A stretch of 64,000 nucleotides of DNA from Agrobacterium vitis (lineage in GTDB: Bacteria; Pseudomonadota; Alphaproteobacteria; Rhizobiales; Rhizobiaceae): assembly GCF_014926405.1 (NCBI RefSeq), contig NZ_JACXXJ020000005.1, positions 1,369,001-1,433,000 on the forward strand, written 5' to 3'. This document shows, in pieces, positions 19,952 to 60,348 of this stretch; within the stretch, counting starts at the first letter, position 1; each line of letters begins with the position of its first letter. Under the pieces are notes generated by a model. That model had not been told where the DNA came from. It saw only the letters and a list, made by a program, of their open reading frames with translations, and searched no databases. Position numbers and translations under genes: made by a program.

Positions 19952-20026
19952 GCGCCCTTCGTCTATCGGTTAGGACGTCAGATTTTCATTCTGAAAAGAG
20001 GGGTTCGACTCCCCTAGGGCGTGCCA
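19952..20026 (+). tRNA. tRNA-Glu (TTC), copy 1 of 3
   Basis: The gene begins GCGCCCTTCGTCTATCGG, has the anticodon loop TTTTCAT (anticodon TTC), a GGTTCGACTC T-arm and encoded 3' GCCA. Acceptor pairing has one G-T wobble at the end. It is 75 bases long and identical to the next two copies. Confidence 0.97.
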
Positions 20027-20240
20027 CTGCTTAATTCCCCAACATGTTTCAAAAATAACGATCGTTTCAAAGATAACGATGGAAATGTTTGGATTCGACC
20101 CCTGCACATTACAGCAGCTTTTCGAAGGGTGGGCGCGGAGCATCGACGGTTCTCCACAGGACGAGGAAAATTCGGCAGCAAAGCTGAAAAATTCGCTTGC
20201 AGCTCCAGTCGGTTCGCACTAAGAGAGCCGCACGCAACAC
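20027..20240. other. Spacer between tRNA-Glu copies 1 and 2
   Basis: About 214 bases with no gene or strong hairpin that I can support. It differs in sequence from the second spacer, so only the tRNA genes and a few flanking bases are repeated. Confidence 0.5.
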
Positions 20241-20315
20241 GCGCCCTTCGTCTATCGGTTAGGACGTCAGATTTTCATTCTGAAAAGAGGGGTTCGACTC
20301 CCCTAGGGCGTGCCA
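20241..20315 (+). tRNA. tRNA-Glu (TTC), copy 2 of 3
   Basis: The 75-base gene is identical to copies 1 and 3, including anticodon TTC and encoded CCA. The 176-base spacer to copy 3 holds no recognisable feature. Confidence 0.97.
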
Positions 20316-20491
20316 CTGCGTTTCCCCGGAAAACTCGTTTCTACATCCTGCTTATTGAAGCGGAAAAGACTGCGCGACCTTAGGTCAGCCAGCTGATAGA
20401 TCGCATGAAAAAAATCACTGAGCCTACGGAAAAAGCTCATTTTTTCGCTTGCCATGAATCATCCGCCTGCCTATAAGCAGCCCCACAGCAC

Positions 20492-20566
20492 GCGCCCTTC
20501 GTCTATCGGTTAGGACGTCAGATTTTCATTCTGAAAAGAGGGGTTCGACTCCCCTAGGGCGTGCCA
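20492..20566 (+). tRNA. tRNA-Glu (TTC), copy 3 of 3
   Basis: The 75-base gene is identical to the other two copies. The bases just upstream (CCACAGCAC) are shared with copy 1 but not copy 2, which hints that copies 1 and 3 share the more recent duplication or gene-conversion event. Confidence 0.97.
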
Positions 20567-41005: not shown

Positions 41006-41185
41006 TTGCGCGATCACCTTGTAGGGAGAATCCGGTTCAGTCCGGTGCCGAAGGAGCAACCGCCCCGGAAACTCTCAGGCAAACGGACCACAAGGCGTAA
41101 ACTGCACTCTGGAGAGAGGCTTGATTGTAAAACCAAGCCGCGCCGAAGGGATAACAATCTCAGGCAAACGGACAGAGGGGGCTCA
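41006..41185 (+). ncRNA. Tandem glycine riboswitch upstream of gcvT
   Basis: Two gcvT-type aptamers lie in a row. Aptamer I (about 41010-41100) contains AGGGAGAA, then GTGCCGAAGGAGCAA and ACTCTCAGGCAAACGGACC. Aptamer II (about 41106-41180) contains CTGGAGAGA, then CGCCGAAGGG and ATCTCAGGCAAACGGACAGAG, closed by the CTCTG/CAGAG stem. The paired GCCGAAGG and TCAGGCAAACGGAC blocks are diagnostic. In other bacteria this RNA turns gcv expression on when glycine is abundant. Confidence 0.95.
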
Positions 41186-42657: not shown

Positions 42658-43020
42658 ATGTTGAAATTCACCTCTGAACATGAATGGCTGCAAATTGAAG
42701 GCGATATCGCCACGGTTGGCATTACCGCCCACGCCGCTGAACAGCTTGGCGATCTGGTGTTTGTAGAGCTGCCAGAAGTAGGTAGCACGTTTGCAAAAGA
42801 CGGTCAGGCCGCAACGGTTGAAAGCGTCAAGGCAGCGTCCGACGTTTATTGTCCGCTGGATGGCGAAGTGACCGAGATCAATCAGGCGATTGTCGATGAT
42901 CCATCGCTGGTTAATTCCGATCCGCGTGGCGCTGGCTGGTTCTTCAAGCTGAAGCTCGCCAATCCTACTGACGCCGAAACCCTCCTGAACGAAGCCGCTT
43001 ACAACGAGCTGATCGCATGA
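42658..43020 (+). CDS. gcvH: Glycine cleavage system H protein
   Basis: The 120-residue product is the lipoyl carrier that shuttles the aminomethyl group between GcvP and GcvT. It begins [16 protein letters not shown] and carries the lipoylated lysine 58 in [13 protein letters not shown]. The length is slightly under the usual 125-130. It overlaps gcvP by four bases (ATGA), so they are translationally coupled. The inverted-repeat element just upstream separates it from gcvT. Confidence 0.97.
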
Positions 43021-50451: not shown

Positions 50452-50945
50452 GACCCTTAAGATCCTTTTTGTTATGATACGGTTCTCATATTCAGGATGG
50501 TTGTCAATCGTGGGATTGGGGTTAAATTCGGGCCAGACGGCCGCGGATATTTATCCTTATGGTTAATTTCCGTTAAAGGCCGTCAGATTATGTGTTTTCG
50601 CGGCCTGAGATCCTTTAAATTGTGTTAATAAGCTTGATATCTCTTTGGGATAAGCCGTGCCGTTAATTGTAACAGTATCTGGAATGTGTCACTACGGAAC
50701 GGGTAGAAAGGCAGATTTAGCCTTAGGCTTTGCTGCTAGACCCTGTAGTGCTATGGATGACCATTGCAGGCCAGGGAATTGAGCGCAAATCCGGCGAGAT
50801 CTGCCGAAATTCAGTCCGGATGGCCGGGAAAACCGGCCAAATGGGTGCGGGGACTGGATGATTAAGGTGTTAGCCGCGTTTGCCGGGCCTTATAAGCAAT
50901 CCGGTCGGGCAATGCGGCCTGAGTAGGCGTAAGCGAGGCGTACCT
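50452..50945. other. Long control region between the Hpt gene and the GPR-like gene
   Basis: About 494 bases without a gene. It is AT-rich in the first half and contains two TTAA-N6-TTAA motifs (50563-50576 and 50615-50628), one base short of the CtrA consensus. A GGCCGG-GAAAA-CCGGCC hairpin lies at 50822-50838. It should hold promoters for both divergent genes. Confidence 0.45.
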
Positions 50946-53900
50946 ATGGCGACCAAAAAGACAAGCGAGTCGATTGACGATAGCGCTTTCCAGGCCCTCG
51001 AGGCAGCCCTGAGGATCGACTTCGAGGAAGAAGACGATACGCCAGTGCGTGGCCCCGCGCCTGTAGCGGCGGAGGCAAAAGTGTCCGACACACCGAGACA
51101 GACCAGGCCTGCACCACGGACCTCCGCGCCGCAAGCGGATACGACAGCCAATGAAAAAGAGCGGCTGCGGGCCGCGGCCCAGGCAAAAGCTGCCAAGGCT
51201 CCAAAGCCTGCTTCCGCTACGACCGCCGATCCTGCGCCTAAGTCCCCTTCCCTTGCCCCTGCCAACGATGCGTCCCGCCGCAGCTCATCCGCCGTGTTGA
51301 AATCGCTTGATGCCGGATCGATGGGCGGCGCGTTGCGCAATGCCACCATCGTTTCGATTCTCTGGGGCGCCGGTGGCCTGGCTCTGTCGCAATTGCTCTA
51401 TGGCTCCCAGATCTGGAGCGGCGGCGCTGCCGCCATTTTCGCCAATCCGGGCATTATCGCCATTCTCGTTGGCACTGTCCTGCCGATCTTCGTGTTCTTT
51501 TCCTTTGCCATCATGATGTCGCGGGCGCAGGACATGCGCAACGCCGCCCGCTCCATGGCAGAAGTCGCCTTGCGCCTGTCCGAGCCAGAAACCGTCGCCT
51601 CCGAGCGTATCATGTCGGTCGGTCAGGCCGTGCGCCGCGAAGTCTCGGCGATGAACGAGGGCATTGAGCGCACCATCGCGCGCGCCACCGAGCTGGAAAC
51701 CCTGGTTCATTCCGAGGTGACCGCGCTGGAGCGCAGCTATACCGATAACGAGCTTCGGGTTCGCAGCCTGGTTCAGGAATTGTCCGCAGAACGTGACGCC
51801 ATCGTCAACCATGCCGATCGCATCCGCTCCTCCATCGTGGGTGCCCATGACCAGTTGAAGGAAGATCTGTCGCTGGCGACAGAAGAAATCGGCATTCGAC
51901 TGGCGACATCAGGCGAGGCTTTTGCCTCGATGATCGATATGCGCGCCGCAACGATCATGGAGAAATCCAACACCGCCGCCACGACGCTTGGATCGCTGCT
52001 GACCGCCAAGACCGACGAAATGGTCCAGACATTGGGTGCCGCCGGTTTCTCGCTGTCGAGCGAATTCGACAACCGTTTGCAGGCCCTCACAGGCTCGATG
52101 TCTACTCACGGCGAAGAAATCCTGCGCCAGTTTGAAACCCGCGCCTCGACGCTTGACGCCAATACCGAAAAGCTCAATGCGGCACTCAACGATCGCGCTC
52201 GTCAGTTGAACGAAACGCTGGTCGCCCGCACCCGCGAAATTGCCCAGAGCTTCACCCAGGGTGAAGCGTCGATCAGCGGCAGTCTGGATAGCGCGCTGTC
52301 TCGCCTCAACGCCTCTCTTGAGGAAAAATCGGTTTCGTTCCGCCAGAGCTTGCAAACCAATGCCGAAGATGCGCTTGTTGATATCGACATCCGCTCCGGC
52401 CTGTTTGAAGACCGGATGCAGGCGACGATTGGCCAGATCAACGCCACGTTCGACGACCGGATGACTGAATTCGCCACCGCGTTCGATCAGCGTGCCGGCA
52501 CGCTCGACAGCAAGTTGAGCGAAAGCCTGCTTCGGATCAACGAGACCATGGCGGGTGGCTCGGAAACCATTGATGGCATCCTGACGACCTCGATCGACCG
52601 CCTCGGCAATACGATGACCGACCAGTCTTTCGCGCTGGCCGCAACCCTTGGCGGCAACCAGGAAGCGTTGACCGAAGCCCTTTCCAGCCATTCGCGGGAA
52701 CTGGCGGACGCCCTCGAGCGGCGCCGCCGCGAACTGGACGAAACGATTTCCAACGCCCAGAGCCGCATCGACCAGATCATGGCCGAACGTGGCACAGCCT
52801 TGACCGAAGCCCTCAACACCAGCCAGACCCGTTTTGACGAAACGCTGGGCAGCCGCTCGGAAGCGGTGATCAACCAGCTCACTGGCAGCCATGATCGCAT
52901 TTCCGACCTGCTGCAAAATGCCTCTTCCGGCATTGTCGAAGCTGTCACCTCGTCCGAAACCCGTCTTGCTAACACGCTGGACCGCAAGGCACAGACGATC
53001 ATAGAGGCCGCCGATGGTGCCGACGCCCGCATCGAGGCCGCTCTCAGCGACAAGGCCGATGCGATCCGTGCCGCCTATGAAACAAACCATGAGCGGCTGA
53101 CATCAGTTCTCGATGCCAAGGTCGAGCAACTCGAACAGACGGCCCTTGCCGTCGATAGCCGTGTCGAGGCTGCTTTTGGCAACAAGGCGGATGCGATCCG
53201 TGCGGCCTATGAAGAAAGCGAGGCGCGCCTTACCCGTACGCTCGACGGCAAGGTTGACCAGATCACCGATGCAGCGACCGAGGCCGATATGCGCATCGAA
53301 CTTGCGCTCGGCAACCGCATGGACACAATCCGCGCCGTCTATGAAGACAGCGAAAGCCGTTTGGCCAGCACAATCGATGCAAAGCTTGGCGCTCTGACCG
53401 AGACACTCGGTAATGCCGATAACCGCATTGAACAGGCGTTTGGCACCAAGGCCGATCAGGTTCTCTCCGCCTATGAGCAAAGCGAAGCGCGCCTTGCCCG
53501 CACACTCGACAGCAAGATTGACCAGATCAGCGACGCAGCCTCCGACGCCGACATGCGCATTGAACTGGCGCTCGGCAACCGTATGGACACGATCCGCGCC
53601 GTCTACGAGGAGAGTGAAAGCCGCCTTTCGAACACCATTGATGCCAAGCTTGGTGCCCTGACCGAGACGCTTGGCAATGCAGACGTTCGCATCGAACAGG
53701 CGTTCGGCACCAAGGCCGATCAGGTTATCTCCGCCTATGAGCAAAGCGAAGCGCGCCTTGCCCGCACGCTTGACAGCAAGATCGAGCAAATCAGCGACGC
53801 TGCCTCCGATGCCGACATGCGCATTGAGCTGGCGCTCGGCAATCGCATGGACACGATCCGCGCCGTCTACGAGGAGAGCGAAACACGCCTTTCCGGCACA

Positions 53901-56900
53901 ATCGATGCCAAGCTCGGCGCTCTGACCGAGACACTCGGAACTGCCGATAGCCGTATTGAGCAAGCCTTCGGCTCCAAGGCTGACCAGCTCCGCGCCGTCT
54001 ACGAAGAGGGTCAGGCCCGCCTGACACAGACTCTTGACAGCAAAGTCGACCAACTCAGCGATGTGGCGGCAGAAGCCGATATGCGCATCGAGTTTGCACT
54101 GGGCAGCAAGGTCGATTCGATCCGCTCTGTCTATGAAGATAGCGAAGCGAGACTGGCTGGAACCATTGACGCCAAACTTGGCCAGTTGATCGAAACCGTC
54201 GGTTTTGCCGATAGCCGTGTGCAGCAAGCACTTGGATCCAAAGCCGACCAGATCCGTGAAGCCTATGAGGCAAATCACGGTCGTCTGGCCGAAATGCTCG
54301 ACAGCCGTATCAATCAGGTCATGGATACCGCCACGGAAGCCGATCTGCGCATGGCGCTCGCCTTCGGCAACAAGGCTGATGATATCAGGGCCGCCTATGA
54401 AGAAAACCAGGGCCGTCTTGAACAGTCACTGGAAGCCCATTCCAGCCGTTTGACGGAAACCCTTGGGCAATCCACCGACCGCGTCGAGCAGGTCTTTGGC
54501 CGCTCGACCGACCGGGTTGAGCAAGTCTTGGGGTCTGGCGTCTCGCGGATCGAGAGTGACATTACCGGCAGTGTTTCGCGGCTGGAAACCACCTTCGAAG
54601 ACAATCACAATCGCCTGCGCCAGACGCTGGACGAGCGTGGCAATGCTATCACCAATGCCTTGCAGAATGCCCGGAGCGGATTGGAAGAAACCCTCAACGA
54701 ACAGGGCATGGCCATCGGCGCCTCGATCGCCGCCAGCGCCGGCATGCTGGAAATGTCGCTGGAAGAGCAGCAGGACAATCTGCGCTCCACCATCGACGCT
54801 TCAAGCCGTGATCTTCAGGACAGGCTGCGCGGTTCGGCTGGTGCCATCGCCGGAGAATTCGGTCAGGCTGCCCGCGAAATCAGCCGCACGGCAGAAGAGT
54901 TCTCCACACGGGTCGAAGGCTCGCTGGACGGCGTCGCCAACCGGTTGTCCGAAACCGGCACCCGGATCGAGACCAGCCTCGGCAGTCTCGAACAGCGTAT
55001 TCAGGGCAGCCTCGAAGGCGTCGACCTCAAGGTCAGCAATGCCGGTGACAATGTTGCCGCCAAACTCTCCGAAAAAGTCTCCGATCTGGAGCGCGTCACC
55101 ACGGATGCAACCCAGCGTATCGAGCAGACACTCGGCGATGCCACGCAGCGTGTTGCCGACACATTTGACAGCCGCACGTCTGTTATCGATGAGCGCCTGT
55201 CGACCATGGACCGCGCGCTGAATATCGGCTTGCAGAATGTGAACAACACCATCGAGGGCAAGGCTGCGGGTCTCGCCTCATCATTGCGCGAAGCCGTTAT
55301 CGGTGCCACCCGTGAGATTGACAGCGAGGCGCAGAAATCCGCCGAATTGCTGGGCCGGACAGGCCAGGAATTCTCCGAGACCATGAATGCCCGCAATGAG
55401 GAATTCACCCGTTCGGTTCGCGAACAGGCGGAAGACCTGACACGCCGGATCTCCGACACCCAGAACCGGCTTGCCGGTCAGGGCGCACAGATTGCCCAAA
55501 GCTTCTCGGATGCTGGCGATGCCATCGTCAGCAAGGTTTCGGCAGCCGAAGCCACCATCACTGCCAAGGCAGGCGCTATCGCCGGGACGTTGACCGATGC
55601 CGAAAAGGCCTTGGAAGAGCGCGCCACGGCAATCCGCGCGGCGCTGTCGGCAACAACCGGCGATATGACCGACGCTCTCGACAGTGTTGATAAGGCGCTG
55701 GACGCTCGTGGCAATGCCATTCGCACCACGTTGGACGAGCGCACCCGCGAGCTGAATTCGATGCTGTCCGGCCGCACATCGGAATTGGCGCGCCTGATCG
55801 AGGAAAAAGCCAAGCCGACCGTCGAGCAATACGCCCAGGTTGGCCGCGATGCCGTCGAACGGATCGCCCAGGCTGCCGACCAGAGTGCGCACAGCTTGCG
55901 CCAGGAAAATGCCAAGCTGGCCGATGCTCTGGCAGCCCGTGCCGCCGAAGCCGCTCGCCAGATGAATGCTGCGGAAAACAGCCTGACATCCAGCGCTGGC
56001 GAGATGATCGACCGCATCAGCGAAACCAACCAGACGCTGCACGCCGTCGTCGAACAGGCCGCCCAGTCCATGGCCAATGCCGACCGCCAGTTTGGCGCAA
56101 CGACTGACCGCCTGGCCGCGACCACCCACAAGGCCGCCGATGTCTTGGCGACGTCTGGCCGGTTGCTGGAAAGCAATCTGGAGCGGCTGTCGAATGTCTC
56201 CAACCAGGCCCTATCTCAGGTGACGGGCATTGTCGGCCGGTTCGGCGATCATGCGAAAGTGCTTGGTCAGGCGTCCGAATTGCTCGGCGCGGCGCAGTCC
56301 AACCTTGCAGGCACGCTCGAGGAGCGTCAGCAGGCTCTGCGCGACCTTTCCATCGGCATCGTCAAGCGGTCGGAAGAGATCGAGAATACCATGAAGTCGC
56401 TGGCCGGCATGGTCGATGGCGCCTTCAGCCAGGCTGAGCAGCGCTCCAGCCAGGTAGCCGGAAACCTGCGTCAGGGGATTGAGACATCCTTTGCGGATAT
56501 CGGCCAGATCCTCGGAGAAACCGAACAGAAAGCCAAGTCCGCCGCGGGCTCCATGCGCGACTCACTGCTTTCGGCTGGTGAAGATGCCACCCGCGCCATT
56601 GAGCGCACCTTGGGTGACGCAGAAAAGCGCTCCAGCGAGTTGGCAAACCGCCTGCGCGGTGGCCTGTCTTCATCGCTCGCCGATGTCGACCGTATTCTGG
56701 CAGAGGCCGGCCAGAAATCCGATGGCACCGCCAACCAGATGCGCGAAGCCGTGCGGTCGGCTGTCGAGGATGCCCTTGGCCGCTTCTCCGGCGCCACCGA
56801 CGAGATCCGTCGTTCGGCCCAGGAAATCCGCCAGGAACTTGACCTGACCCGTACCGAACTGAAGCGCGGCGCCTTCGACCTGCCGGAAGAAGCCAAGGAA

Positions 56901-57710
56901 AGCGCCGGCGCCATGCGTCGTGCTGTTGCCGAGCAGATCAAGGCCTTGCAGGATATTTCACAACTGGTGGGTCGTAGCGCCCAGCAGCTGGAAATTTCCA
57001 CGCCAGCGCCTCGCGCTGCCGCGCCTGCCCCTGCTGCTGTTCAGCCGCAACCGGCTCGCCCAGCACCGACTGTTCAGGCCCAGGCTCCAGCCCCACAGCC
57101 CGCACCAGCTCCTGTCCCTGCCCGTCCGGCAATTTCGGCCGCGCCAGCCCCTCAGCAAACCCCACGCCCTGCCGTCAGCCCTCTTGGCCTGCGTGGCAGC
57201 CTGCAAAGCGAACAGCCAGCATCGGCTGCGGGCGAAGGCTCCGGCGGCTGGATCAGCGACCTATTGCGCGGCGCTTCGCGTGAGGAACAGACGATCACCT
57301 CGCCTGCCCGCGCCACTCGCCCAGCTGGGGAAGCTCCGCGCAGCAATGACAGCCGCAACCCGCGCCATATGGTCGAATCGCTGAATTCACTTTCGGTCGA
57401 TATTGCCCGGGCCATCGATCACGATGCCTCGGTCGATCTGTGGCGCCGCTACCAGCGCGGCGAGCGCGACGTCTTCACCCGTCGCCTCTACACGCTGAAG
57501 GGCCAGCAGACCTTTGATGAAATCAAGCGTAAATACGACCGCGAACCGGAATTCCGCACTGCCGTCGACCGCTATATCGCCGATTTCGAAAAGCTGCTGT
57601 CCGACGTGGCCCGTACCGACCGCGACAAGTCGATCACCCAGTCCTACCTGACGTCCGACACCGGCAAGGTTTATACCATGCTCGCGCATGCGGCAGGCCG
57701 GTTTAGCTGA
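50946..57710 (+). CDS. GROWTH POLE RING (GPR/RgsE)-like giant apolipoprotein-repeat protein
   Basis: The 2254-residue protein has, in order: an acidic, disordered N-terminus (1-130); two membrane segments (about 133-153 and 169-190); some 1800 residues of amphipathic helix with 11-residue periodicity, including eleven exact 44-residue repeats at 703-1186; a Pro/Ala/Gln-rich linker (about 2018-2078); and a conserved C-terminal domain (2139-2254) with DLWRRYQRGERDVFTRRLY. This is the layout of GPR of Agrobacterium and RgsE of Sinorhizobium, inner-membrane proteins that form a ring at the growing pole and organise polar cell-wall synthesis. The identification rests on size, order and neighbours' lineage, not on a database search. 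The ATG at 50946 follows a GCGAGGCG ribosome binding site. Confidence 0.85.
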   Translation: MATKKTSESIDDSAFQALEAALRIDFEEEDDTPVRGPAPVAAEAKVSDTPRQTRPAPRTSAPQADTTANEKERLRAAAQAKAAKAPKPASATTADPAPKSPSLAPANDASRRSSSAVLKSLDAGSMGGALRNATIVSILWGAGGLALSQLLYGSQIWSGGAAAIFANPGIIAILVGTVLPIFVFFSFAIMMSRAQDMRNAARSMAEVALRLSEPETVASERIMSVGQAVRREVSAMNEGIERTIARATELETLVHSEVTALERSYTDNELRVRSLVQELSAERDAIVNHADRIRSSIVGAHDQLKEDLSLATEEIGIRLATSGEAFASMIDMRAATIMEKSNTAATTLGSLLTAKTDEMVQTLGAAGFSLSSEFDNRLQALTGSMSTHGEEILRQFETRASTLDANTEKLNAALNDRARQLNETLVARTREIAQSFTQGEASISGSLDSALSRLNASLEEKSVSFRQSLQTNAEDALVDIDIRSGLFEDRMQATIGQINATFDDRMTEFATAFDQRAGTLDSKLSESLLRINETMAGGSETIDGILTTSIDRLGNTMTDQSFALAATLGGNQEALTEALSSHSRELADALERRRRELDETISNAQSRIDQIMAERGTALTEALNTSQTRFDETLGSRSEAVINQLTGSHDRISDLLQNASSGIVEAVTSSETRLANTLDRKAQTIIEAADGADARIEAALSDKADAIRAAYETNHERLTSVLDAKVEQLEQTALAVDSRVEAAFGNKADAIRAAYEESEARLTRTLDGKVDQITDAATEADMRIELALGNRMDTIRAVYEDSESRLASTIDAKLGALTETLGNADNRIEQAFGTKADQVLSAYEQSEARLARTLDSKIDQISDAASDADMRIELALGNRMDTIRAVYEESESRLSNTIDAKLGALTETLGNADVRIEQAFGTKADQVISAYEQSEARLARTLDSKIEQISDAASDADMRIELALGNRMDTIRAVYEESETRLSGTIDAKLGALTETLGTADSRIEQAFGSKADQLRAVYEEGQARLTQTLDSKVDQLSDVAAEADMRIEFALGSKVDSIRSVYEDSEARLAGTIDAKLGQLIETVGFADSRVQQALGSKADQIREAYEANHGRLAEMLDSRINQVMDTATEADLRMALAFGNKADDIRAAYEENQGRLEQSLEAHSSRLTETLGQSTDRVEQVFGRSTDRVEQVLGSGVSRIESDITGSVSRLETTFEDNHNRLRQTLDERGNAITNALQNARSGLEETLNEQGMAIGASIAASAGMLEMSLEEQQDNLRSTIDASSRDLQDRLRGSAGAIAGEFGQAAREISRTAEEFSTRVEGSLDGVANRLSETGTRIETSLGSLEQRIQGSLEGVDLKVSNAGDNVAAKLSEKVSDLERVTTDATQRIEQTLGDATQRVADTFDSRTSVIDERLSTMDRALNIGLQNVNNTIEGKAAGLASSLREAVIGATREIDSEAQKSAELLGRTGQEFSETMNARNEEFTRSVREQAEDLTRRISDTQNRLAGQGAQIAQSFSDAGDAIVSKVSAAEATITAKAGAIAGTLTDAEKALEERATAIRAALSATTGDMTDALDSVDKALDARGNAIRTTLDERTRELNSMLSGRTSELARLIEEKAKPTVEQYAQVGRDAVERIAQAADQSAHSLRQENAKLADALAARAAEAARQMNAAENSLTSSAGEMIDRISETNQTLHAVVEQAAQSMANADRQFGATTDRLAATTHKAADVLATSGRLLESNLERLSNVSNQALSQVTGIVGRFGDHAKVLGQASELLGAAQSNLAGTLEERQQALRDLSIGIVKRSEEIENTMKSLAGMVDGAFSQAEQRSSQVAGNLRQGIETSFADIGQILGETEQKAKSAAGSMRDSLLSAGEDATRAIERTLGDAEKRSSELANRLRGGLSSSLADVDRILAEAGQKSDGTANQMREAVRSAVEDALGRFSGATDEIRRSAQEIRQELDLTRTELKRGAFDLPEEAKESAGAMRRAVAEQIKALQDISQLVGRSAQQLEISTPAPRAAAPAPAAVQPQPARPAPTVQAQAPAPQPAPAPVPARPAISAAPAPQQTPRPAVSPLGLRGSLQSEQPASAAGEGSGGWISDLLRGASREEQTITSPARATRPAGEAPRSNDSRNPRHMVESLNSLSVDIARAIDHDASVDLWRRYQRGERDVFTRRLYTLKGQQTFDEIKRKYDREPEFRTAVDRYIADFEKLLSDVARTDRDKSITQSYLTSDTGKVYTMLAHAAGRFS
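53052..54503 (+). repeat. Eleven tandem 132-bp (44-residue) repeats within the GPR-like gene
   Basis: Repeat starts fall exactly every 132 bases from 53052 (KAD/RMD, then IRA-YE--E-RL--T-D-K). Odd and even units alternate in type, giving an 88-residue, 264-base super-repeat; copies at 53448 and 53712 are nearly identical in DNA. Each 44-residue unit is four 11-residue turns, the period of apolipoprotein-type helices. Confidence 0.93.
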
Positions 57711-58102: not shown

Positions 58103-59614
58103 ATGGAGAGGGAGTTGAAGCGAGTGGATACGATTGCGCGCGTCCGGCGGGCCTTTCATGTTCAAGGTTGGTCGATGAAGAAGATCGCCCGTGAACTGCA
58201 TGTTTCCCGCAACACGGTCCGCAAGATATTGCGCAGCGACGAGACCGACTTCTCCTACGAGCGCGAGCGGCAGCCTTTGCCAAAGACGGGGGCCTGGCAG
58301 GCGGAGATCGAGCGGTTTCTTGCGACGAACGAAGGCAGGCCATCGCGCGAACGGCTAACGCTGATCCGGATTTACGAGGAGCTTCGAGCGCTCGGATATG
58401 ACGGCAGCTATGATGCGATCCGCCGTTACGCCAAGGGTTGGGCGAAGAACCGGGGATCAGCGACGGCGCAGGCCTATGTGCCGCTCTACTATGCACCCGG
58501 CGAAGCCTACCAGTTCGACTGGAGCCACGAGATCGTGCTGATCAACGGCACGACGACGACCGTGAAGGTTGCTCATGTCCGGCTCTGCCACAGCCGCATG
58601 ATGTTTGCACGTGCCTATATGCGCGAGAGCCAGGAGATGGTGTTTGACGCCCACGACAAGGCGTTTGCCTTCTTCCGTGGTACCTGCACGCGTGGCATCT
58701 ACGATAACATGAAGACGGCGGTGGAGGCGGTGTTCGTGGGCAAGGAGCGGCTATACAATCGCCGCTTTCTGCAGATGTGCAGCCACTACCTTGTTCAGCC
58801 TGTCGCCTGCACCCCGGCGTCTGGTTGGGAGAAGGGCCAGGTCGAGAACCAGGTTGGCCTGGTGCGCGAACGCTTCTTCACGCCGCGCCTGAGGGTTAAG
58901 AGCCTTGAGGAATTGAACGTTTGGCTGCTCGACAAATGCGTCGCCTATGCCAAAGCGCATAACCATCCGGAACAGGCCGACCAGACGATCTGGCAGATGT
59001 TCGAAGCCGAACGCAGCAGCCTCGTCCCCTATGTCGGTCCGTTCGACGGCTTTCACTGCGTTCCGGCCTCGGTCTCGAAGACCTGCACGGTCCGTTTCGA
59101 CAATAACAAATACTCGGTCCTCTCAACGGCTGTCGGCCGCCCGGTCGAAGTCCACGCCTATGCCGACCGGATTGTGGTCAAGCAGGATGGCACGGTCATC
59201 GCCGAACATCGGCGCAGCTTCGGCCGCGGCGAGACGGTCTATGATCCCTGGCATTATGTGCCTGTCCTGGCCCGTAAACCCGGCGCTCTTCGCAATGGCG
59301 CGCCGTTCCGCGACTGGGTAATGCCGGCGGCGATGGAGAAGGTCCGCAAGCGATTGAAGACAGTCGATGACGGCGATCGGCAAATGGTCACCATTCTCGG
59401 ATGCGTACCGGGCGACGGTATCACGACCGTTGAGGCCGCCTGCCAGGAGGCGCTTGATCAGGGCGTCTGCTCGGCTGCCGTCATCCTCAACATACTGGCG
59501 CGGCGTCGTGATCCTGCTCCGGCTGCGCCCCTGCAAATCCCCGATGCACTGCGGCTGACCCATGAGCCGGTCGCCGATTGCGCTCGCTATGACAGCCTCA
59601 GGAGGGCAAGCTGA
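58103..59614 (+). CDS. istA: IS21-family transposase IstA
   Basis: The 503-residue product begins with a helix-turn-helix ([19 protein letters not shown]) and contains the DDE-type integrase core: [12 protein letters not shown] with the first catalytic aspartate, and [13 protein letters not shown] with the second, followed by [17 protein letters not shown] with the glutamate. It recognises the element's ends and carries out transposition together with IstB. The frame is intact, so the element may still be active. Its stop shares one base with the istB start. A shorter start at an internal ATG is possible, but the full-length product fits the family. Confidence 0.94.
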
Positions 59615-60348
59615 TGGAACGCACACAGGTTCTGGAATTGATGAGCACCTTGAAGCTCTACGGCATGCGCAGCGCCTATGACGAGGTCATGGGCAACGGC
59701 ATCAAGCGCCAGCATGAGCCGCCGCGTATCGTTGGCGATCTTCTGCAGTCCGAGATCGCCGAGAAGCAGGCCCGCTCCATCCGCTACCAGCTCAGCATCG
59801 CCAAGCTGCCGCTCGCCAAGGATATCGACGACTTCGACTTCACCAACACGCCCGTCAATGAAGGCCTTGTCCGCGACCTGGCCACCGGAGCCTTTGTTGC
59901 CGATCAGCGCAATGTTGTTCTCGTCGGAGGCACGGGCACCGGCAAGAGCCACCTGGCCATCGCGATCGCCCGCGCGCTCATCCGCAACGGCACACGCGGG
60001 CGCTTCTACAATGTCGTCGACTTGGTCAATCGGCTGGAGACGGAGACGCGCAGCGGCAAGCAGGGCCGGACGGCGGACTATCTCAACCGCCTCGACTTCA
60101 TCATCCTCGACGAACTCGGATACCTGCCATTCGCCCAGGCCGGCGGCCAGCTTCTGTTCCACCTGATCAGCAGGCTCTACGAGCGCACATCCATCATAGT
60201 CACCACCAACCTGGCATTCGGCGAATGGCCAACCGTCTTCGGCGACGCCAAGATGACCACCGCGCTCCTCGACAGGCTCACCCATCACTGCGAGATCGTC
60301 GAAACCGGCAACGAGTCCTGGCGCTTCAAAAACCGCTCTCAAAGCTAA
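59614..60348 (+). CDS. istB: IS21-family ATPase IstB
   Basis: The 244-residue AAA+ ATPase, related to DnaC, has Walker [16 protein letters not shown] near residue 105, Walker [13 protein letters not shown] and the sensor segment [15 protein letters not shown]. In IS21 elements IstB assembles on target DNA and activates IstA. The gene is intact and starts on the last base of the istA stop, so the two are translationally coupled. Confidence 0.95.

Follow-up and report, generated by a model that had tools for sequence, protein, structure and literature searches.

Rod length varies while helical phase is largely kept in the growth pole ring protein GPR/RgsE of Agrobacterium vitis and its relatives

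The growth pole ring protein GPR/RgsE of Agrobacterium vitis, a giant rod protein with a proposed role in organising the growing tip of cells in rhizobia and agrobacteria, is encoded on a 64,000-nucleotide stretch of contig NZ_JACXXJ020000005.1 (assembly GCF_014926405.1, positions 1,369,001 to 1,433,000; hereafter the window), taken from a genome of 6.40 Mb (G000). Its long helical rod contains an array of eleven tandem units, each of 44 residues. Comparison of 115 orthologues from the Rhizobiaceae revealed a well-supported pattern, that of a polar growth scaffold whose rod is free in length and nearly fixed in phase. Among 36 phylogenetically disjoint pairs of genes with less than 15% divergence in the conserved flanking DNA, the segment that carries the array (a3-a4) differed in length in 12, each time by a multiple of 11 residues, whereas a Pro/Ala-rich linker in the same genes differed in 21 and never by a multiple of 11. 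The best reading, and in our judgement a probable one, is that a rod of 11-residue helical repeats (hendecads) is altered by recombination between in-register repeats under purifying selection on helical phase, with mutation bias contributing.

A preliminary description of this DNA, made from the sequence alone, called the gene GPR-like, and this was borne out. The PF01442 profile matched ten stretches along the rod (271.7 bits against a cut-off of 90), and the C-terminal domain was found in 59 of 60 genomes of a genus sample (two matches each in G018 and G030) and in 117 of 120 genomes of an order sample (two matches in G115). By its architecture the gene is an orthologue of GPR/RgsE, the reference proteins being compared by description: Atu1348 of Agrobacterium tumefaciens (2115 residues) and SMc00190 of Sinorhizobium meliloti (2089 residues; PMC8262873, PMC7327166). 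As far as the available parts of these two papers describe them, they share with the window protein a long helical PF01442 rod, low-complexity regions near the C terminus and a conserved C terminus. Two hydrophobic stretches that we picked out by eye in the window protein are putative membrane helices and agree with the pair of N-terminal transmembrane domains that PMC8262873 reports for GPR. The closest named relatives of the gene are those of Agrobacterium vitis CG78 (L089) and NCPPB 3554 (L090, whose protein is identical to that of G012). The mechanical open reading frame begins further upstream, at a TTG at 50880. The features of the gene are as follows.

50946–57710, plus strand: gpr/rgsE coding sequence, 2254 residues, from an ATG at the MA[NT][NK]K motif common to relatives; PF01442 at E 4.1e-81
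51339–51515, plus strand: two putative membrane helices, about residues 132–190, hydrophobic stretches judged by eye from the translation
51606–52445, plus strand: helical segment of fixed length (a1-a3), residues 221–500, from anchor distances
52446–54695, plus strand: rod segment of variable length (a3-a4), residues 501–1250 (750 residues), from anchor distances; carries the array
52920–53051, plus strand: degenerate 'unit 0'
53052–54503, plus strand: array of eleven units of 132 bp (44 residues), A and B types alternating, from unit comparison, repeat finding and shuffles
53448–53711, plus strand: 264-bp super-unit, units 4 and 5
53712–53975, plus strand: 264-bp super-unit, units 6 and 7, compared with units 4 and 5
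56226–56858, plus strand: segment a7-a8, residues 1761–1971, from anchor distances
56988–57335, plus strand: Pro/Ala-rich linker within a8-a9, whose length varies by any number of residues; internal negative control
57336–57707, plus strand: conserved C-terminal domain; the longer piece 57222–57707 was the query for finding orthologues

Open reading frames on the minus strand over the array (51909–53090 and 53103–54278) were rejected as genes by inspection only, as they mirror the periodic coding strand.

Rod lengths were measured as distances between nine conserved anchors (a1 to a9) in 115 non-redundant orthologues; these are net lengths, from which compensating insertions and deletions (indels) would escape. 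The genus sample consisted of 60 genomes drawn from a larger group, of which G053 gave no match and G004 (cut by a contig end) and G030 (split) were left out, while one of the 57 regions taken, that of G023, ran into a contig end, so that 56 remained. To these were added named loci, the best 80 of 554 relatives and hence biased to near relatives, from which six (L091, L100, L114, L127, L135 and L137) were removed because they were truncated, lacked the conserved start or had a different longest frame. Fifteen of the remaining 74 duplicated proteins of the genus sample (56 + 74 − 15 = 115). The sample contains one genome per species, and its pairs lie at 2% flank divergence or more. Path-disjoint pairs, 57 in all, were drawn with our own script from one midpoint-rooted FastTree tree of the conserved flank DNA.

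Segment a1-a3 had a net length of 280 residues in all 115 orthologues. The adjoining a3-a4 ranged from 332 to 1240 residues in 49 distinct lengths, and 31 of the 48 distinct non-zero differences from the window protein were multiples of 11. The same held for 12 of 19 distinct differences in a4-a5 and five of seven in a6-a7, where 33 proteins have a length other than that of the window protein and 31 of them depart from it by a multiple of 11. None of the four distinct differences in a7-a8 was a multiple of 11, the commonest being 29 residues, i.e., eight turns at 3.625 residues per turn. In the linker a8-a9, only four of 45 distinct lengths (zero difference included) were multiples of 11. The best-fitting period of the a3-a4 length differences was 3.665 residues (R 0.75), and their phase coherence between 3.55 and 3.70 was matched by none of 2000 random sets; for a5-a6 the best-fitting period was 3.625 and two of 2000 sets matched the coherence. 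Coherence in this range exceeded random expectation in each rod segment (at most 10 of 2000 sets) and was absent from the linker, where 1841 of 2000 random sets reached the observed value. The preliminary description had the helix phase perfectly kept along the array; this is upheld by the length steps among orthologues and in close and disjoint pairs, and extends far beyond the array.

Segment a7-a8 has another length in 34 of 115 proteins. In other species it is longer by 29, 40, 58 or 62 residues, none of them a multiple of 11, and its hydrophobic period in the window is 3.57–3.64.

When all 57 disjoint pairs were considered, a3-a4 differed in 30, by a multiple of 11 in 25 and by fewer than 11 residues in none, whereas the linker differed in 42, once by a multiple of 11 and 27 times by fewer than 11 residues. 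Among all overlapping pairs below 15% flank divergence, 174 of 176 differences in a3-a4 were multiples of 11; the two exceptions were differences of 182 residues, one of them in a pair that includes L157, a locus with 69-residue copies. Close pairs that differ in a6-a7 stepped by 11 or 22 residues in 19 of 19 cases, although few independent events underlie these. No pair at 2–6% flank divergence differed in a3-a4 length (0 of 22) while 15 of 36 pairs at 6–8% did, from which we conclude that length changes on the time-scale of species and not obviously on that of strains, all sampled pairs lying at 2% or more.

The pattern was also sought across the order in 40 genomes chosen from the 117 with a match, with G149 and G178 shortened by contig ends. 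They represent 14 other genera, of which one belongs to the same family and thirteen to other parts of the order. Forty within-genus pairs were formed and measured between anchors unique to each pair; seven pairs that include G171, G087 or G133 yielded none. The 33 remaining pairs overlap and are not independent. Multiples of 11 made up 29 of 53 rod steps as against three of 45 linker steps. Full-looking gpr frames across the order run from about 850 residues, in the 1.3–1.4-Mb genomes G105, G136 and G165, up to 2940 residues (G098).

Within the window, the tiling of 53052–54503 by eleven units of 132 bp free of indels was confirmed, as was the alternation of unit types, odd and even units forming two types. 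Identity within the array was 68% at a lag of 88 residues and 43% at a lag of 44, values reached by none of 1000 full shuffles and none of 1000 shuffles preserving the composition of each 11-residue column, and Tandem Repeats Finder reported a period of 264 bp, 3.0 copies and a score of 1104. The edges are soft, with the degenerate unit 0 at 52920 sharing 45% identity with units 2, 4 and 6. Other parts of the preliminary description of the array need correction. The repeats are exact in length but not in sequence, the eleven units being 27–95% identical at the amino-acid level, and each unit does consist of four 11-residue blocks, although a block makes about three helical turns and not one. 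The 264-bp copies beginning at 53448 and 53712, described as nearly identical, differ at 37 of 264 sites (86% identity; synonymous divergence, dS, 0.67; longest identical run 40 bp), and only their A-type halves are close (unit 4 vs unit 6, 10 of 132 sites, dS 0.34).

Recent duplication in the window genome is not supported either: the window gene is not one of the 19 of 115 genes that contain tandem copies at least 95% identical over at least 99 bp. The dS of 0.67 between super-units, set against 0.14–0.35 for the orthologous flanks of the window and five vitis-complex genomes, suggests that the duplication is on average older than these species. This clock is rough, given that orthologous dS of single units ranges from 0.00 to 0.87, a scatter that is to be expected if copies exchange sequence.

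In the 19 genes with such recent copies, the best stretch of copies lay inside a3-a4 every time, and the smallest period was a multiple of 33 bp in 17; the longest tract of close copies, about 870 bp, occurs in G026. The size of the repeat unit depends on the lineage, being 44 residues in G001 and G047, 66 in L096 and L146, 80 in L134, 69 in L157 and 88 in G048 and the vitis complex. The 80-residue repeats of L134 (gpr residues ~700–1100) and the 69-residue repeats of L157 (~780–1050) are not multiples of 11; they correspond to 22 and 19 whole turns at about 3.63 residues.

Counting units in close relatives (the preliminary description had proposed a count in close strains) showed that copy number does differ. 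The set comprised seven vitis-complex genomes and the outgroup G011; seven of the eight genomes (six of the seven in the vitis complex) have 11 units, while G012 has 13 through an insertion of exactly 88 residues, i.e., one 264-bp super-unit. Units at the edges of the array are orthologous by position in each genome compared. Further inside, some sister units resemble one another more than they resemble any window unit: units 3 and 5 of G042 and units 6 and 8 of G012 (4 nt in each case), and units 4 and 6 of G011, which differ from each other at 7 nt and from their nearest window units at 17–18 nt. In G033, G015 and L089, however, the window unit nearest to each unit is the one that holds the same position. 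To judge from these sequences, the pattern is one of patchy concerted evolution, which would be produced by recombination between in-register copies.

The array has the 11-residue periodicity of a hendecad rod. Positions 2, 5 and 9 of the 11-mers in the array are apolar (AILMFVYW) in 48, 100 and 100% of cases, or in 32, 100 and 86% if alanine is not counted, the spectral peak of hydrophobicity over the array lies at a period of 3.66–3.68, and residues 221–2000 include only two prolines in 1780 residues. The apolar spacing of 3-4-4 is that of the hendecad coiled coils described in the available part of PMC9858780. We propose that the array is part of the cytoplasmic rod of a membrane-anchored polar growth protein, the rod being an almost proline-free chain of hendecads. 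Its middle third, a3-a4, would repeatedly gain and lose tandem copies when in-register repeats recombine or slip, the size of the unit (44, 66, 69, 80 or 88 residues) depending on the lineage, and some sister copies would homogenise one another. Length would be loosely constrained and helical register strictly so: an indel that breaks the phase would turn the apolar stripe of the whole downstream part and undo the way it packs against a partner helix. If the net change is 11 residues the stripe would stay in place, whereas most other changes would turn it, and for this reason we take the rod to be a packed continuous helix whose length drifts while its phase stays fixed. The array itself, the change in copy number, the phase-locked changes in length, the flank of constant length and the younger sister copies of some relatives are direct results; that recombination is the mechanism, that the helices pack, and that the phase lock is due mainly to selection and less to mutation bias are our inferences.

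Several results weigh against this reading. Seventeen of the 48 distinct differences in a3-a4 are not multiples of 11, and neither are those of five of the 30 differing disjoint pairs (51, 93, 106, 150 and 725 residues); in a5-a6 multiples of 11 account for only three of the 13 distinct differences, and the segment also shows steps of 4, 7 and 15 residues. The order test had 24 of 53 rod steps off 11: nine were of 1–7 residues, seven lying within about 65 residues of the boundary between rod and linker, several others come near whole turns (36, 40, 58, 69, 80 and 94), and those of 179, 248 and 590 do not. An AlphaFold2 monomer model of the 484-residue array, built from a 13-sequence alignment, was mostly helical but of low confidence, with two helix gaps, a mean predicted local distance difference test score (pLDDT) of 49 and a predicted template modelling score (pTM) of 0.25. 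Finally, 687 of 742 frame-keeping exact matches of at least 12 bp within a3-a4 (93%) are already spaced by a multiple of 33 bp, and length steps in multiples of 11 would thus be favoured there by mutation bias on its own as well.

This last figure also speaks for an explanation by mutation bias only, in which the DNA is periodic at 33 and 132 bp, slippage or recombination mostly shifts it by multiples of 33 bp, and there is no selection on phase. The 29-residue steps in a7-a8, which accompany microhomology at 87 bp (23 of 40 such matches), point the same way, as do eight of 20 matches of at least 12 bp at multiples of 33 in a6-a7. We nevertheless consider bias without selection unlikely, since it does not account for the lack of repeat-independent small indels among the a3-a4 differences of disjoint pairs (0 of 30, vs 27 of 42 in the linker of the same genes). 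Moreover, microhomology is periodic in a1-a3 too (18 of 27 matches of at least 12 bp), yet this segment has one net length in all genes, and a6-a7 shows a weak bias at 8 bp (128 of 837 matches) yet steps by multiples of 11 in nearly every differing protein and in all differing close pairs.

Selection might act on length as well as on phase. GPR could be a digital molecular ruler, in which tandem hendecad blocks set rod length in three-turn steps, fix the distance between a membrane ring and a C-terminal docking domain and so help set the growth-pole geometry of each species, while register is kept so that ring protomers stay zipped; we regard this as improbable. An adaptive ruler as such, with unit number tuned so that rod length sets the ring diameter or the gap between membrane anchor and C-terminal binding site per species, appears marginally more doubtful still. 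Its attraction is that the span from a1 to a8, 1307–2306 residues in the 115 proteins, would measure roughly 196–346 nm as one straight helix at 0.15 nm per residue (our own arithmetic), and that the best-conserved stretches sit at both ends of the rod. Drift fits the length variation equally well, however, and the lack of length change at 2–6% divergence speaks against a fast tuning device. It is also very unlikely that the array is a fast, strain-level variable tandem repeat of the contingency type (the preliminary description had raised copy-number variation among strains), again in view of the unchanged lengths at 2–6% divergence, the range of the closest sampled pairs. The close copies in 19 genes and the long tract in G026 are what such a locus would show, but near-identical units occur in some relatives and not in the window, whose super-units are diverged, and 11 units are common to six of the seven vitis-complex genomes. 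That the copy numbers are an assembly artefact, through collapse or expansion of repeats, is hardly credible, even though several relatives are drafts, including G012 (~20 contigs) and G026 (~40 contigs). The six super-units of G012 differ pairwise at 24 sites or more and so are not one copy doubled by assembly, assemblies of 5–7 contigs (G033, G042 and G015) concur on 11 units, and the 7-contig assembly of the window genome resolves nine identical 2.2-kb copies of an insertion sequence, so that an array of 1.5 kb and 86% identity should be safe.

That insertion sequence is an IS21-family element at 58103–60348 (a Mu-transposase/integrase-like gene and IstB), 0.4 kb downstream of gpr. Besides nine identical full copies the window genome has one partial copy, and the site is empty in L089 and L090, which indicates that the element was recently active in this genome. 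Elsewhere in the window we noted a glycine riboswitch aptamer at 41013–41099, which precedes the gene for a glycine cleavage P-protein at 43017, and three tandem tRNA-Glu(TTC) genes at 19952–20566, within about 0.6 kb.

Rods of related build offer useful comparisons. GPR resembles the apolipoprotein A1/A4/E family (PF01442) both in its profile match (271.7 bits) and in the 11-residue periodicity of its amphipathic helices. Exchangeable apolipoproteins are characterised by proline-punctuated 22-mers, and in this the GPR rod, with its two prolines, is unlike them. Variable tandem repeats in bacterial surface and structural proteins change copy number in frame and homogenise between copies; the GPR array differs in that its variation was seen between species only, in belonging to an internal growth scaffold and in being quantised to helix turns. 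In Streptomyces, Scy and FilP have a role in tip growth. According to the available part of PMC9858780, they too possess, in an apparatus for cell growth and division, a very long rod of 11-residue repeats that is thought to have grown by expansion of coiled-coil repeats, but they carry a DivIVA-like N-terminal domain, and the window GPR matched no DivIVA family in Pfam at E 1e-3. Coming from an unrelated lineage, Scy/FilP are the closest working analogue of GPR, which is not a member of their family.

Previous work on GPR and RgsE speaks of apolipoprotein-like domains and coiled coils in the rod; the available parts of PMC8262873 and PMC7327166 mention no tandem arrays of 44 residues, no change in copy number and no steps of 11 residues, and the word 'repeat' is absent from the main text of the former as available. 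The preliminary description knew of no account of length variation, and this was nearly right: Krol 2020 (PMC7327166) terms RgsE 'large and repeat-containing' and widened a size filter to ±50%, with no unit or length step described in the part available. The same paper reports growth of an rgsE deletion mutant of the laboratory strain S. meliloti Rm2011. No account of quantised GPR/RgsE length change was found in searches of the open-licence literature on the growth pole ring, RgsE, hendecads, repeats and length, nor is one given in the available parts of PMC13170164, PMC8546619 and PMC9938171. GPR, which has been termed apolipoprotein-like, is reported to form a ring at the growth pole of A. 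tumefaciens that is hexameric and measures about 200 nm (PMC8262873). Section 12 of that paper, in the available text, gives 600 nm for an extended helical domain of 1,700 residues; an alpha-helix at 0.15 nm per residue would come to about 255 nm by our own arithmetic, a value closer to the 200 nm of the ring.

The same section of PMC8262873 states that the precise mode of action of GPR is unknown, and phase may touch on one puzzle reported in that paper. Interference with the wild type is stronger when about 20 residues of domain A-IV-4 are deleted than when the entire domain is lost (section 8), and 20 or 21 residues are not whole helix turns whereas 22 nearly are. This is only a lead, given that in the available text the size of the deletion varies (20, 21 and 413–434), a similar-sized deletion in A-IV-1 was milder in the interference test, and both deletions formed paired foci when expressed alone. 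The phase lock favours a rod that is one packed, continuous helix and speaks against a loose arrangement of lipid-binding domains; it also offers a design rule for deletions. More broadly, the evolutionary record provides a testable constraint on GPR/RgsE in unipolar growth: blocks of the rod come and go, and the register apparently does not.

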